From positions 1 to 29,842 of IMG/VR virus record IMGVR_UViG_3300044491_002714: a stretch of DNA of 29,842 bases; one strand, 5' to 3'. Position numbers and translations under genes: made by a program. The stretch is from a virus. Numbering within the stretch: position 1 is the stretch's first letter; each line of letters opens with the position of its first letter. The notes under the pieces are model-generated. The model was not told where the DNA came from. It saw nothing but the letters and a program-made list of their open reading frames with translations, and did not search any database. Shown here one piece after another: positions 15,661 to 21,591 of the stretch.

Positions 15661-16578
15661 ATGATATACGATCAGGTAAAAAAATTATTATCAACAGGAC
15701 CTGCATCTACTAATAGATATTCTGCAATGTTCTCTGGGGGAGGAGGTCTTGACCAGCAAGGTGGAAGCGCAACAGGTGGAACACTTGGTTGGGCAAATGG
15801 ATTGCAGTCAGAACTACGTTTGTTGAACGAACATTCTGATTTATTGATTTCTAGTATTCAATTTCCTGGTAGATCATTTGCTACTGGAGAGATGCGTGGT
15901 GATAGAGCACTTGGACTTACAAGAAAGTATATTCACAGTGTCATGTTCAATGAGTTTTCTATGACTTTTACATTGAATGGTACATTAGATGTGCATTATA
16001 TTTTTACTACATGGTTAGAAAATGCTGCTCCGAGAGTAACTGGTCCTAGTCTTACTAGAAAAGATATAAGAATACAATATTATAATAGTTACGTTGATCC
16101 TAAGATCATTTTGAAAAAAATGGAGAGAACTGGTGAGGTATCATTAGTCACTAATGTTTATAATGCTTTTCCTTTGAATGTCTCTGACCTTAGTTTGTCT
16201 GCTTCAGGTAATAACAGTACATTAGAATTTACTGTCAATTTTGCATATGAAACCTTTGAAAATATGTATGGTGGTCAGTCAACTTTACAGAGAGCTGCAC
16301 CTACTAGTGCTGATGGAATGGGAGCAGATGGAAATGCATGGGGTGATGTAGATCTTGGACTTGATACGGGTTTATACAAATTTGATCCTGGGTACGACAT
16401 GTTTGATCCAGATAATCCGATTGCAGACAACTGGGATATTGCGTTTGGAGCAGACCAGTCTATAATTGATTATTCATCAATGATGCAACTCAAGAACGGT
16501 CAATCAAATGATGCAACGAAGAAAATTGTTGCTGAAGAGAAAGCTCTTGCAAACAAAGGTAAGTCTGAGTCACCATAA
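15661..16578 (+). CDS. gp54: Baseplate tail-tube initiator gp54
   Basis: gp54 forms the layer between gp48 and the tail tube and has a tube-like fold. The 305-residue protein is close to T4 (320). It begins MIYDQVKKLLSTGPASTNRY and has SELRLLNEHSDLLISSIQFP, FNEFSMTFTLNG, FTTWLENAAPRVTGP, a middle helix and strand (RKDIRIQYYN), then NVYNAFPLNVSDLSLSASGN and LEFTVNFAYETFENMYGG, the usual C-terminal pattern of T4-like tube proteins (F-P-x-x-x-S, x-F-x-Y). A disordered tail is rich in Asp and Gly. The gene reads opposite to 53-48-4. Confidence 0.85.
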   Translation: MIYDQVKKLLSTGPASTNRYSAMFSGGGGLDQQGGSATGGTLGWANGLQSELRLLNEHSDLLISSIQFPGRSFATGEMRGDRALGLTRKYIHSVMFNEFSMTFTLNGTLDVHYIFTTWLENAAPRVTGPSLTRKDIRIQYYNSYVDPKIILKKMERTGEVSLVTNVYNAFPLNVSDLSLSASGNNSTLEFTVNFAYETFENMYGGQSTLQRAAPTSADGMGADGNAWGDVDLGLDTGLYKFDPGYDMFDPDNPIADNWDIAFGADQSIIDYSSMMQLKNGQSNDATKKIVAEEKALANKGKSESP

Positions 16579-16684: not shown

Positions 16685-17389
16685 ATGCCATTACCCAAGA
16701 TTACTGCCCCTTCTTATGAAGTGATTTTGCCATCAAATGGAAAGACTATCAAGTATAGACCGTTTCTTGTCAAGGAAGAGAAGGTTTTGATGCTGGCATC
16801 AGAATCTGACAATCCAAAAGATGTTGCAAACGCAATCAAAACCATCTTATCTGCTTGTATTATTTCTAGAATCAAAATCGAAGAACTTTCTTCTTTTGAT
16901 ATTGAATATCTCTTCCTGAATGTACGAGCAAAGTCTGTTGGTGAGGTTTTAGAAATTTCAGCACCTCTTCCATCTAATCCAGATGCACTTGTAAAACTTG
17001 AAGTGAACCTACAAGATGTGCAAGTTCAGTTCCCTGAAGGACATGAAAAGGAAATTGAAATTAGTGATGGTCTTACATTGGCGATGAAGTATCCAAGCAT
17101 GGATATGTTCATTGACATGAATTTTACTAATAAAGAAGTTGATCCTTTTGAGGTAATTGCTAAGTGTATTGATCAGATTATTCAAGGTGAGGAAATTTGG
17201 GAAGGATCTGAATGTTCTAAGAAAGAACTGACTGATTTTATTGAATCAATGACATCAGATCAGTTTGCTAAGGTCAATAAGTTCTTTGAAACTATGCCTA
17301 AACTTGAGCATAAAGTTTCAGTTCCCAATCCAGAAACTGGAGAATCTGAAGAAATCACCCTATCTGGTATTGGCGATTTTTTCGGTTAG
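16685..17389 (+). CDS. gp26: Baseplate hub subunit gp26 (T4_baseplate family)
   Basis: gp26 is a baseplate hub assembly protein in T4. The 234-residue protein begins MPLPKITAPSYEVILPSNGK and has the family's TIKYRPFLVKEEKVLMLASE, then DVANAIKTILSACI, FDIEYLFLNVRAKSVGE, LAMKYPSMDMFIDMNF and EVIAKCIDQII, similar to phage hub and chaperone proteins of the PF12322 type. The end reads SGIGDFFG and stops at 17387. The sequence T TTT TTC at 17377-17383 is an in-frame slippery heptamer, and the -1 frame runs without a stop into the next ORF, so a longer version is likely. Its position just before the tape measure matches tail assembly chaperones of other phages. Confidence 0.85.
   Translation: MPLPKITAPSYEVILPSNGKTIKYRPFLVKEEKVLMLASESDNPKDVANAIKTILSACIISRIKIEELSSFDIEYLFLNVRAKSVGEVLEISAPLPSNPDALVKLEVNLQDVQVQFPEGHEKEIEISDGLTLAMKYPSMDMFIDMNFTNKEVDPFEVIAKCIDQIIQGEEIWEGSECSKKELTDFIESMTSDQFAKVNKFFETMPKLEHKVSVPNPETGESEEITLSGIGDFFG
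17377..17383 (+). promoter_or_regulatory. Putative -1 frameshift slippery site
   Basis: The heptamer T-TTT-TTC is in gene 26's frame as X-XXY-YYZ, six bases before its stop codon. A -1 slip gives CGG TTA GCC and then the ATG at 17392. A stimulatory structure is not clear; only GGGG (17393 onward) with TCCC nearby could form a weak hairpin. Confidence 0.6.
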
Positions 17390-17391
17390 CC

Positions 17392-17571
17392 ATGGGGTAC
17401 ATATCCCTCGAAGTATATTATGAAACCAATTTCGCAATGATGCATCACCACAAGTGGTCTCTAACTGAAATTGAAAACATGATACCTTGGGAGAGGGATG
17501 TGTATGCTTCCATGCTTTCCGAACACTTGAAGGATCAAAAACAACAAATGGAACAAAAAAAAGGATTCTAA
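17392..17571 (+). CDS. Small ORF, likely C-terminal extension of gp26 by -1 frameshift
   Basis: The 59-codon ORF reads MGYISLEVYYETNFAMMHHH and then KWSLTEIENMIPWERDVYAS, ending in a Lys/Gln-rich tail. The LTEIxxMxPWERDVYxxML pattern resembles the second part of tail assembly chaperones (as in lambda gpT), which recruit to the tape measure. There is no ribosome site: GGTTAGCC precedes the ATG. In the -1 frame it is continuous with gene 26 past the T-TTT-TTC site. It ends directly at the tape-measure ATG (17572). It may be made only as a fusion (gp26-GT-like) or also alone. I cannot identify a T4 homologue with certainty. Confidence 0.75.
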   Translation: MGYISLEVYYETNFAMMHHHKWSLTEIENMIPWERDVYASMLSEHLKDQKQQMEQKKGF

Positions 17572-20500
17572 ATGGCTAATACCATCGATGTCAAAGGTGC
17601 GATTGTAAATATCACACCAACAAAAACTGTAAAATTTGATAGGATGATGGGGTCTACTGGCGGTGCTGGTGGACAAGGTAAGTCAGCTAAATTCTCTGAT
17701 AAGGGAGAATACAAGAATCTCGGTAAGTTTGTTGTCCTCATGGGGCAAAGTTTGAAGAAGATGAATGTGAATCTTCTTCAAACTAAGAAAGAAATCACAG
17801 GTCTTAGAAAAGAGAATGGTGAGAAACTAACTGCGATTGCAACTGCGATTGGTGATCAGAGAGCAGAACTAAAATCGTTTGCAAAGTCACAGAAGAAAGC
17901 AAATAAGACACTCAAGGATCTTGCAGGTAAGGTAGGAACTTCTCTAGAGTTAGATAAGATCCGAAACAAAGGTGCTCTTGAGGACAGAAAAGAAAGAAGA
18001 AGAGATAGAGAAGAAAGAAGAAGAGTAGAAAGAGAAAGTGCCTTAGAAAAAGGTAAAAAAGTAATTGGTGGTATAGGAAGTGGTTTAGGAAAACTTGCTA
18101 AGGGTGGTAAGAATTTCCTTGAGACCATCATGGATTTCCTTGGAATCGGGGGATTCATTGCATCTGTTGTAACTGCATTTGCTGGTTATCAGATTCTAAA
18201 GAAAGCACTCAACTCCAACTTTGTCAAGAATACTGTCAAAGGGTTCATGGAGGGAATGCAGAACCTGATTGCAGGTATTCAATCAATTCCTGAAGGTGCA
18301 TTTGACAAGATCGGTAACGCTCTCGGTGGCATTGCAAAATTTCTTGGTGGTGCTCTTGGTAAAACTATTGAGAGTGTTGGTAAGTTTATTGATGGGATTC
18401 CTCAAGAAACTCTTGATAAGTTTGGTAAGTTTTTTGGCAATGTCTTCAAGTTTGTCGGTGCCTTTGTTGGAGATAGATTCAAAGAAATCTTCAACGGTCT
18501 AGATAAACTCATTGACAAAGATGGCAATCTGAAGTTTGATTTAGGCGGTATTGTCAATCTGATCACTGGCATTGGTGGTCTTGCTTTAGCATACCGATAT
18601 ATCAAGAACCCAGAAAAGATTATTGGTGATGTTGGAAGTGTCTTAGGTTTCTTTGGTACTCTAGCAGGAAAGGCAGGAGCAATGCCTGGTACTCTTGGTA
18701 AAGTATTTTCGATATTTGCTGAGAGAGGGGCAAGTCCTCTCAAACCAATGTTTGTCAGGGTTGTTGGTAAAGGTGGTGGACTTGGTGGTGGTCTTGATGA
18801 TCTTATACCTAAAGGTCCTGGTCTTAAGATTCCGAATAAATTTACTGCTCCTAGAGGCAGTGGTCTGAACACTGGTGGCAGCAAATTATCAAAGTTGATG
18901 AAGCTAGGTAAAGGTGCTGGTGTTTTAGCACGTCCTGGTAGTATTATCAATGCCGCCACAGGTAGAGCAACTAGAATGCTTGGGGGCAACAAAGCAATCG
19001 ATGTTGTCAAGAATCTAAAGGGTGCTGATGCTACAAAATTTCTTAGAAAAGCAGTTATGTCAGGAACCCTGTCAGAAACGCAGGCACTCAAAATTGCTAA
19101 GTCTAAGGGACCTAATGTTCTGAAGAATCTAAAAGGTGTTCTTGCTCAGGGTGGAAATCTTGGTCGTGGTCTTGCGACCCGTGGAGGAGAGGCTCTAATA
19201 GGTGCGAGGCAGGGATTTGGTAATTTTATGTCAGGTCTTGGTCAAAAAGGCATGGGACTTCTGAAAGGTGCTAAAGGTCTTGGAAAGAATATCTTAGCAG
19301 GCGCTCTTGCACTACCTGGAAATGCAGCGAACCTTGCAAAAGGTATTGGACAAAAGGCAGTGTCATTTGGTGGTTCTGCTGTTGGTGGAATCAAAGGATC
19401 TCTAAGGTCATTAGGTGAAGGTTTATCAAACCTAAATCCAATGCAAGCACTTGAAAAAATCAAGAGCGGGGTTGGATCAAAGATTGATGAGATTATGAAA
19501 GCAGAACCTTTGATTGCTGCAATCAAGAATCTCAAAGATCCTAAAAAGATGAAAGAGATTCTGAAGAATACCTTATCTAGAGCCAAACCTGCATTGAATG
19601 GTATCAAAGATGCTAAGAAAGCAATGGGTCCATTCAAGATTCCTGGACTTGATGCTGCTATTGGTGCATTGACTGCTGCGATTGAGATCTTTGCATTCAA
19701 ACAACCAGCAGGTAATGCTGCATTGGGTGCTCTTGGTGGTGTTCTTGGATCAGCAGCAGGTACTGCTGTTGGTACTCCTGGTGGTCCTCCTGGAATGTTT
19801 ATCGGTGCCATGGCAGGTGCAACTCTTGGTGAATTAGCAGGTCGGGCGATTGCAAGAGGATTGGGTAATGTTCTCCCACCTGAAATTGGTGGATTCACTG
19901 GTATCAATGGTGCTCCATTGTTCTCTACGGCAGGTCTTTCTGAAAATCCAGAACCAGCAGACGGGGAAGCACCAGTCAAGAAAGCAAGGGGTGGTAAGAT
20001 CTTTGGCGGTAGACCAACTGGTGATAGCGTTCCTGCTTATCTTGAGCGTGGTGAATATGTCCTCAATAGAAAAGCAGTATCTGCTATTGGACCATCAAAT
20101 CTAGATGCGATGAACTTTGGAATGTATCCAAGATTCCAAAGTGGTGGTCAAGTATCGAGACAAGAAGGATGGGATAAGTTTACTGAGTGGGGTAAGGAGA
20201 AGGGTGCAAAGTATCCTCAACTCGTTAGTGCTCAGTGGGCACTAGAATCTGGATGGGGATCTGCTCTGTCTGGTAAAAATAACTTCTTTGGAATCAAAGC
20301 AACCACCAGCGAATCTTCAACCAATCATAGAACTAGAGAAGTTGTCAATGGTAAAGACATTTATGTCAATGCTAACTTCAAGAACTTTGAAACACCTCAA
20401 GACGCTGTTGATCACCTTGTGTCTCAGTGGTATAAGAATTATAAGAATTATAAGGGTGTCAACAATGCTGGTAGTCCTAATGAAGCAGCAGCGATGTTGA

Positions 20501-21591
20501 AACAGCAAGGATACGCTACAGATCCTAGCTATCCTCAGAAACTGATCGAGTTGATGCAATCGAAAGGTGTTAGCAGTGGTCCTGCATATGTCAGTGGAGA
20601 TGGAAATTCCAAATCTGGATCTGGTGCCGAACCAAACAGAAGTGGTGGTTTCCTGAGCAACCTTGTGGGATTTATGCAGGAAGGTGGTTCAGTAGATAAA
20701 AAGCATCCACTCTTGAAAAAACTGAGTGATGGTAAGATCAAGAAAGTTGGCGCACCAATGGGATATTGTGTCACTGGATCTCTTGATACGATGAAAGCAA
20801 GTGGTGTTCCAGAACCTGCTGCTACTGGAAATGATGTTGGTAATAATCCAAGAGGTGCAATCTCTCAGTTGATGCAATCACCTTACAACTGGAAGAGTAT
20901 GGGTGGATCATCAATCAAACTAGATAGTCCATATGGAAAGGTCAATGCAGGAACTTACACAAAAGATCAATACAAGAGTTTGGTAGAGAGTGGAAAGGTT
21001 CCTTCAGGTGCATTGGTATTCCAATCTAGACATAGTAATTGGAATGGAACTTCCCCTAGATCCAGTGGTTATGACATGGCGATTGCACAGCAGGGTGGTA
21101 AAAGGCATTGGAATGGACAACCAATGCCAATGTTTGTTTATGGCAACAACACCAAGAAAGTTATCGTTCTTACACCAGACGGTAAACAAGGTGATGGAAG
21201 TGATGTTCAAATAACAGGTGAAGATAATTCATATACTGGAACAGATAGTAGCAATAATCCACAACCATCAACTGCGGAAAATAGCTATGGATTCTTGGGA
21301 CAACAAGACGTAATCGCGAGTGGAGGCATCACAAGTCAAGCAAACATTTCTGCAATGACAAAAGGCATCATGGCAATGGCAGGTGATGTATCTAAATCAG
21401 GTGGTGGAGGTATATTTGGTGGTGCCATGGGTGGTGCAATTCAACCAGCTCTATCAACTGGAGGCAATGCTGCTCCAAATCCAGTATCTACAGCACAAGG
21501 AACTGCTAACCCTTCAAGTGGCGGTGGTCTCTCCTTGTTCTCTACTTCAACGGTAAATAGAAATAACGAAGCAAAGAGTGAAATGAGGTAA
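17572..21591 (+). CDS. Tape-measure-like tail protein with glucosaminidase and peptidase-like domains
   Basis: The protein has 1339 residues. N-terminal region: coiled coil to about residue 160, with a very basic stretch (DRKERRRDREERRR). Middle: hydrophobic, Gly-zipper segments at about 185-215 (FLGIGGFIASVVTAFAGYQI) and 715-770, typical of tape measures. GGKIFGGRPTGDSVPAYLER is a motif common near the ends of tail tape measures. Residues 864-1002 form a FlgJ-like glucosaminidase (QWALESGWGS with E892, NNFFGIK at 903-909, VDHLVSQWYKNY). Residues 1060-1200 resemble a CHAP or NlpC-type fold, with C1066 in GYC and H1154 or H1179 as candidates; this is tentative. It sits after the chaperone and before gp27. 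It would fix tail length and then help DNA cross the host wall. Confidence 0.85.
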   Translation: MANTIDVKGAIVNITPTKTVKFDRMMGSTGGAGGQGKSAKFSDKGEYKNLGKFVVLMGQSLKKMNVNLLQTKKEITGLRKENGEKLTAIATAIGDQRAELKSFAKSQKKANKTLKDLAGKVGTSLELDKIRNKGALEDRKERRRDREERRRVERESALEKGKKVIGGIGSGLGKLAKGGKNFLETIMDFLGIGGFIASVVTAFAGYQILKKALNSNFVKNTVKGFMEGMQNLIAGIQSIPEGAFDKIGNALGGIAKFLGGALGKTIESVGKFIDGIPQETLDKFGKFFGNVFKFVGAFVGDRFKEIFNGLDKLIDKDGNLKFDLGGIVNLITGIGGLALAYRYIKNPEKIIGDVGSVLGFFGTLAGKAGAMPGTLGKVFSIFAERGASPLKPMFVRVVGKGGGLGGGLDDLIPKGPGLKIPNKFTAPRGSGLNTGGSKLSKLMKLGKGAGVLARPGSIINAATGRATRMLGGNKAIDVVKNLKGADATKFLRKAVMSGTLSETQALKIAKSKGPNVLKNLKGVLAQGGNLGRGLATRGGEALIGARQGFGNFMSGLGQKGMGLLKGAKGLGKNILAGALALPGNAANLAKGIGQKAVSFGGSAVGGIKGSLRSLGEGLSNLNPMQALEKIKSGVGSKIDEIMKAEPLIAAIKNLKDPKKMKEILKNTLSRAKPALNGIKDAKKAMGPFKIPGLDAAIGALTAAIEIFAFKQPAGNAALGALGGVLGSAAGTAVGTPGGPPGMFIGAMAGATLGELAGRAIARGLGNVLPPEIGGFTGINGAPLFSTAGLSENPEPADGEAPVKKARGGKIFGGRPTGDSVPAYLERGEYVLNRKAVSAIGPSNLDAMNFGMYPRFQSGGQVSRQEGWDKFTEWGKEKGAKYPQLVSAQWALESGWGSALSGKNNFFGIKATTSESSTNHRTREVVNGKDIYVNANFKNFETPQDAVDHLVSQWYKNYKNYKGVNNAGSPNEAAAMLKQQGYATDPSYPQKLIELMQSKGVSSGPAYVSGDGNSKSGSGAEPNRSGGFLSNLVGFMQEGGSVDKKHPLLKKLSDGKIKKVGAPMGYCVTGSLDTMKASGVPEPAATGNDVGNNPRGAISQLMQSPYNWKSMGGSSIKLDSPYGKVNAGTYTKDQYKSLVESGKVPSGALVFQSRHSNWNGTSPRSSGYDMAIAQQGGKRHWNGQPMPMFVYGNNTKKVIVLTPDGKQGDGSDVQITGEDNSYTGTDSSNNPQPSTAENSYGFLGQQDVIASGGITSQANISAMTKGIMAMAGDVSKSGGGGIFGGAMGGAIQPALSTGGNAAPNPVSTAQGTANPSSGGGLSLFSTSTVNRNNEAKSEMR

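Follow-up and report, generated by a model that had tools for sequence, protein, structure and literature searches.

The locus analysed here raises the question of whether gene 26 and the small open reading frame (ORF) that follows it in the -1 frame encode two distinct baseplate hub proteins or, rather, the short and long forms of a single tail assembly chaperone. The DNA under study, hereafter the window, is an IMG/VR virus record of 29,842 bases in which a second copy of gp26 is absent, and its source is a T4-like cyanophage, as the presence of psbA and S-BM3 as nearest relative indicate. The psbA gene (photosystem II D1) is located at positions 1293-2345, and its product matches phrog_182 at 3.7e-177. 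Around gene 26 lie a tail-tube-like gene upstream and a tape-measure-like ORF downstream (Table 1), which would give the usual order of tube, chaperone and tape measure. On the evidence discussed below, which is computational, it is very probable that gp26 represents the short chaperone TAC-N and the small ORF ("gp51") the TAC-C domain, and that -1 frameshifting joins the two into TAC-NC, so that both would belong to one chaperone locus.

Table 1. Features of the gene 26 locus and of its neighbours, in window positions.
Feature	Position	Strand	Remarks
Gene 26, putative short tail assembly chaperone (TAC-N), 234 aa	16685..17389	+	stop TAG 17387-17389; phrog_150 3.8e-75; PF12322 3.5e-70; AlphaFold2 pLDDT 90
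Slippery heptamer T-TTT-TTC, in phase with gene 26	17377..17383	+	T-TTT-TTN in 324/326 loci
-1 frame extension (putative TAC-C, "gp51"), RLAMGYISLEVYYETNF...KKGF	17383..17571	+	stop TAA 17569-17571; phrog_634 7e-27; open in all complete relatives
-1 frame from first ATG, 59 codons; possible, unproven independent start	17392..17571	+	Shine-Dalgarno not above random
Candidate stimulatory hairpin GGGGT-ACAT-ATCCC, 10 nt past heptamer	17394..17407	+	-5.4 kcal/mol
Tape-measure-like ORF, 1339 codons, glucosaminidase domain	17572..21591	+	directly after TAC-C stop
Tail-tube-like gene upstream of gene 26	15661..16578	+	phrog_45 6.3e-24

Gene 26 ends with the codons GGC GAT TTT TTC GGT TAG, which place the heptamer in the phase X-XXY-YYZ, while the -1 frame reads TTT TTT CGG TTA GCC ATG GGG and continues to a TAA that abuts the ATG of the tape-measure-like ORF. 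A previous sequence-only reading of this DNA had described precisely such an in-frame heptamer, with a -1 frame leading into a 59-codon ORF that ends at the tape-measure-like ATG, and the sequence bears it out; its placement of the heptamer six bases before the stop was only loosely right, as a single codon (3 bases) separates the end of the heptamer from the TAG, and its first base lies 10 bases ahead of that stop. The downstream ORF may be the tape measure gene, judging from its position and from weak matches, and its glucosaminidase domain spans residues 880-997 approximately. In-frame T-TTT-TTN occurs only twice in the 7005 codons of the window genes and, because about 0.003 occurrences would be expected in a gene's final 10 codons, its presence at the end of gp26 is not due to chance. 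An open -1 frame beyond the end of a gene is instead not rare in this gene-dense window and, since neither this nor the missing Shine-Dalgarno (SD) sequence of the small ORF says much by itself, the case for frameshifting rests on conservation.

The alignment of the heptamer and of the -1 continuity across relatives, which the sequence-only reading had proposed, was carried out on loci drawn from scans of viral contigs and from annotated phages, 326 of which had the gp26 stop inside, and the heptamer was scored as an in-frame T-TTT-TTN within the last 20 codons of gp26. It was present in all but two of these loci and, besides cyanophages, was found in KVP40, Aeh1, pf16, Mendera, OLIVR6, RL2RES and LPCS28. 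The codon that precedes TTT is one of six (GAT, AGT, AAT, TCT, ACT or GCT), and its third base is always T although the encoded amino acid varies, which corresponds to a naive log10 P of -32.7 at 95% non-redundancy and of -21.3 at 70%, values that are optimistic because shared ancestry is ignored. The search did demand this T, but 163 of the 165 loci left at 95% non-redundancy passed, and the selection bias is therefore small. Among the 158 complete cases at the same non-redundancy, the -1 frame was open for at least 56 codons in every one, and neither the +1 frame nor the 0 frame beyond the stop was ever as long as 45 codons. In 19 non-redundant loci (L021, L029, L030 and L037 among them) gp26 extends 8 codons beyond the heptamer, and that stretch is consequently coded in two frames. 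The two exceptions among the 326 loci are Salmonella phage SFP10 (Ackermannviridae) and Vibrio phage K361, in both of which the heptamer is absent and the -1 frame is open, and which must use a different slip site or a different mechanism. SFP10 reads ATT TTC ATT TAA (L006, near 1741), and K361 reads CTT TTC AAG TAA (L094, near 1869).

It could be argued that the two phenylalanines are kept for the sake of the protein, given the conserved G[LI]xxFF motif at the end of gp26, and that the -1 overlap is an ordinary gene overlap involving no frameshift, as open -1 frames are common at gene ends in the window. FF pairs elsewhere in gp26, however, are written NNT-TTT-TTY in only 10 of 175 instances, and nine T4-group phages whose separate gp51 is full-length have no in-frame T-TTT-TTN anywhere in gp26, even though five of them still encode FF at this place, as TTC TTT or TTC TTC. 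Furthermore, the second codon of the slippery pair can be TTC, TTT, TTA or TTG, and the nine cases with leucine (TTA/TTG) imply that what is kept are the slippery bases rather than phenylalanine. Such an explanation based on the protein is, in our opinion, almost certainly wrong.

A separate small gene, translated by termination-reinitiation at the ATG at 17392, is an alternative interpretation, and one with which public records agree, in that gp26 and gp51 are annotated separately. This ATG, located 2 bases after the gp26 stop in the window clade, has counterparts in the -1 frame of 51 other relatives (52 of 158 with the window included). In 73 of the 158 relatives, however, no ATG, GTG or TTG follows the preceding -1 stop ahead of the conserved downstream domain, which makes a separate canonical start impossible in those phages, and both the conservation of the heptamer beyond the amino acids it encodes and a T4 gp51 that carries the N domain in one frame speak against reinitiation. 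We consider it very unlikely that reinitiation accounts for the small ORF in place of frameshifting, although the two could coexist in the window clade. It is true, as the sequence-only reading had stated, that the small ORF has no ribosome site, with SD strength at its ATG equal to that of random positions, but gp26 itself does no better and several other window genes likewise have no SD sequence, and hence the missing site proves nothing. In the public records examined (L001, L339 and L337, among others), gp51 is either unannotated or given as a CDS of its own that begins at an internal start; the latter removes conserved residues in some records, and the gp51 of S-RSM4 is made to start 50 bases after gp26. 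The proteins that the examined cyanophage records list as separate hub proteins, or the second of which they miss altogether, are in all likelihood two forms, one short and one long, of a single tail chaperone, and a widespread annotation would thereby be corrected.

Across the family, the 45 bases that begin at +11 hold an excess of RNA structure (their mean z is -1.33, with 33% below -2), compared to a mean z of -0.54 to 0.12, with 4-10% below -2, at other places, and such structure may play a stimulatory role. This enrichment just downstream of the site fits a ribosomal stimulator, and speaks against the possibility that RNA polymerase, and not the ribosome, slips on the T run to yield a fraction of shifted mRNAs. 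The signal is in fact a run of six or more T, and one added U would equal a -1 shift, but six T are short for efficient transcriptional slippage, and we regard this explanation as extremely improbable. With regard to ribosomal frameshifting, the P-SSM2 clade has an 11-bp hairpin with compensatory changes (77.1% of cells paired versus 73.8% when shuffled, 1/500, and at most 47% when slid), and a second clade has a GCCTCT/AGAGGC helix that is changed to GCTTCT/AGAAGC and to GCCTGT/ACAGGC. The only candidate in the window is a weak 5-bp hairpin, which S-BM3 and close relatives share, whereas some other members of the clade do not. The family-wide comparison yielded no single helix common to the whole family, and no Rfam match was obtained. 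A hairpin enclosing the heptamer, with an upstream purine arm and a downstream CCCTCT arm, seemed promising when sequences were viewed one at a time and was rejected, as its pairing (68%) equals that of independent columns (68%). An SD-like run at -14 to -10 is found in 142 of 161 loci, and may follow from conserved E/K/R-Gly codons. The lack of this SD-like stimulator upstream of the window's heptamer, together with the weak downstream hairpin and the ATG in the -1 frame, counts against frameshifting here, and so do the open -1 frames of SFP10 and K361, which have no heptamer. We would only tentatively suggest, as a rather doubtful possibility, that around a near-universal heptamer the stimulator was rebuilt repeatedly, as different hairpins and at different positions in each clade, and that the ATG of the window clade could add free TAC-C.

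As for the proteins themselves, gp26 matches the T4 baseplate hub family, and the small ORF matches the "baseplate hub assembly catalyst" family of gp51 (Table 1) as well as the C-terminal residues 244-282 (of 282) of phrog_150, the gp26 family, a sign that fused members exist. T4 gp26 matches PF12322 at 8.8e-64 and the fusion profile at 1.8e-28, and T4 gp51, whose 249 aa are read in one frame, matches PF12322 over residues 1-201 and phrog_634 over residues 147-246. The fusion profile is colinear with T4 gp51 through the junction and with T4 gp26 only up to GLKEFF; In terms of alignment, T4 gp26 corresponds to TAC-N, and T4 gp51 to the fusion, junction included. Unlike in the window, genes 26 and 51 of T4 are separate, divergent and without a slippery site. 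The 2022 study by Vladimirov and coworkers reportedly describes frameshifting as conserved in several T4-like groups, with T4 using genes 26 and 51. T4-like phages would have two solutions to one need, namely frameshifting or, as in T4, two separate genes. In Cronobacter phage GAP161 (L353, 1201-2494), gene 51 directly precedes gene 26 and both are on one strand, which adds a third layout to those of T4 and of the cyanophages.

Sequence searches returned no relative of solved structure. In the AlphaFold2 model of gp26, residues 1-95 match 3fgx (Z 8.1), the HK97 tail assembly chaperone 2ob9 (Z 7.5) and 3klu (Z 7.2), with Foldseek E > 1 and with Z values of 7-8 falling in the range that the comparison tool calls middling; the next match is 5ir0 (Z 5.0), and unrelated ones do not exceed 2.6. 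Both 3fgx and 3klu are presumably chaperone relatives themselves. The predicted N-terminal part of gp26 thus resembles the HK97 tail assembly chaperone, and while the sequence-only reading had seen in gp26 a T4-type hub gene with a borrowed trick, the protein is better read as a short tail assembly chaperone itself. The -1 frameshift that it had proposed, and its analogy with G/GT, gain strong support from the conservation of the heptamer and of the -1 frame, from the missing starts in many relatives, from the colinear T4 gp51 and from this chaperone-like predicted fold.

In the mechanism that we infer, the efficiency of the slip would be such that most ribosomes terminate at the TAG and release the 234-aa TAC-N, and some slip back one base on T-TTT-TTC, where the two Phe tRNAs would re-pair from TTT-TTC to TTT-TTT. 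These ribosomes would bypass the stop and produce a 295-aa TAC-NC ending in the small TAC-C domain, and both forms, by analogy with lambda gpG/gpGT, might wrap around the tape measure protein and bring in tube subunits. Our literature search found no cyanophage ribosome profiling paper of use in this regard.

The lambda gpG/gpGT pair shares with this locus a short form and a -1-extended long form, encoded at one locus between the tail tube and tape measure genes. It differs in its slippery sequence (GGGAAAG), and the window comes from a myovirus with a larger TAC-N; the two are likened by arrangement. Phage P2 E/E' shifts into the -1 frame where TAC-N ends, on a T-rich site, as would the locus described here. 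The same is reported for the TAC loci of Vandenendeviridae and Andersonviridae, where a GTTTTT is conserved (PMC12846349). P2 and these families belong to other phage lineages, and the likeness is again one of arrangement. Within T4-like phages, TAC-N genes are known to contain poly-T frameshift signals (PMC12846349, citing Vladimirov, Gautam and Davidson 2022), and some of these phages have instead a short gene and, separately, a longer one for the fused form (PMC10885494, citing Vladimirov et al. 2022). The sequence-only reading knew of no description of this arrangement in T4-like cyanophages; as a claim of novelty this fails for T4-like phages in general, as frameshifted tail assembly chaperones of T4-like phages were published in 2022, according to the citing passages of both papers. 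As far as those passages describe the chaperones of Vladimirov et al. 2022, the gp26 and gp51 families are the same, and ours are found on a cyanophage fragment. Our tests at the level of start codons, codons and downstream structure may duplicate those of that study or may not, and the start-codon test, along with the clade-specific hairpins, may go beyond published work. The mechanism is not itself new, being familiar from phages at large and, since 2022, from T4-like ones, and the locus is a clear new example of it.
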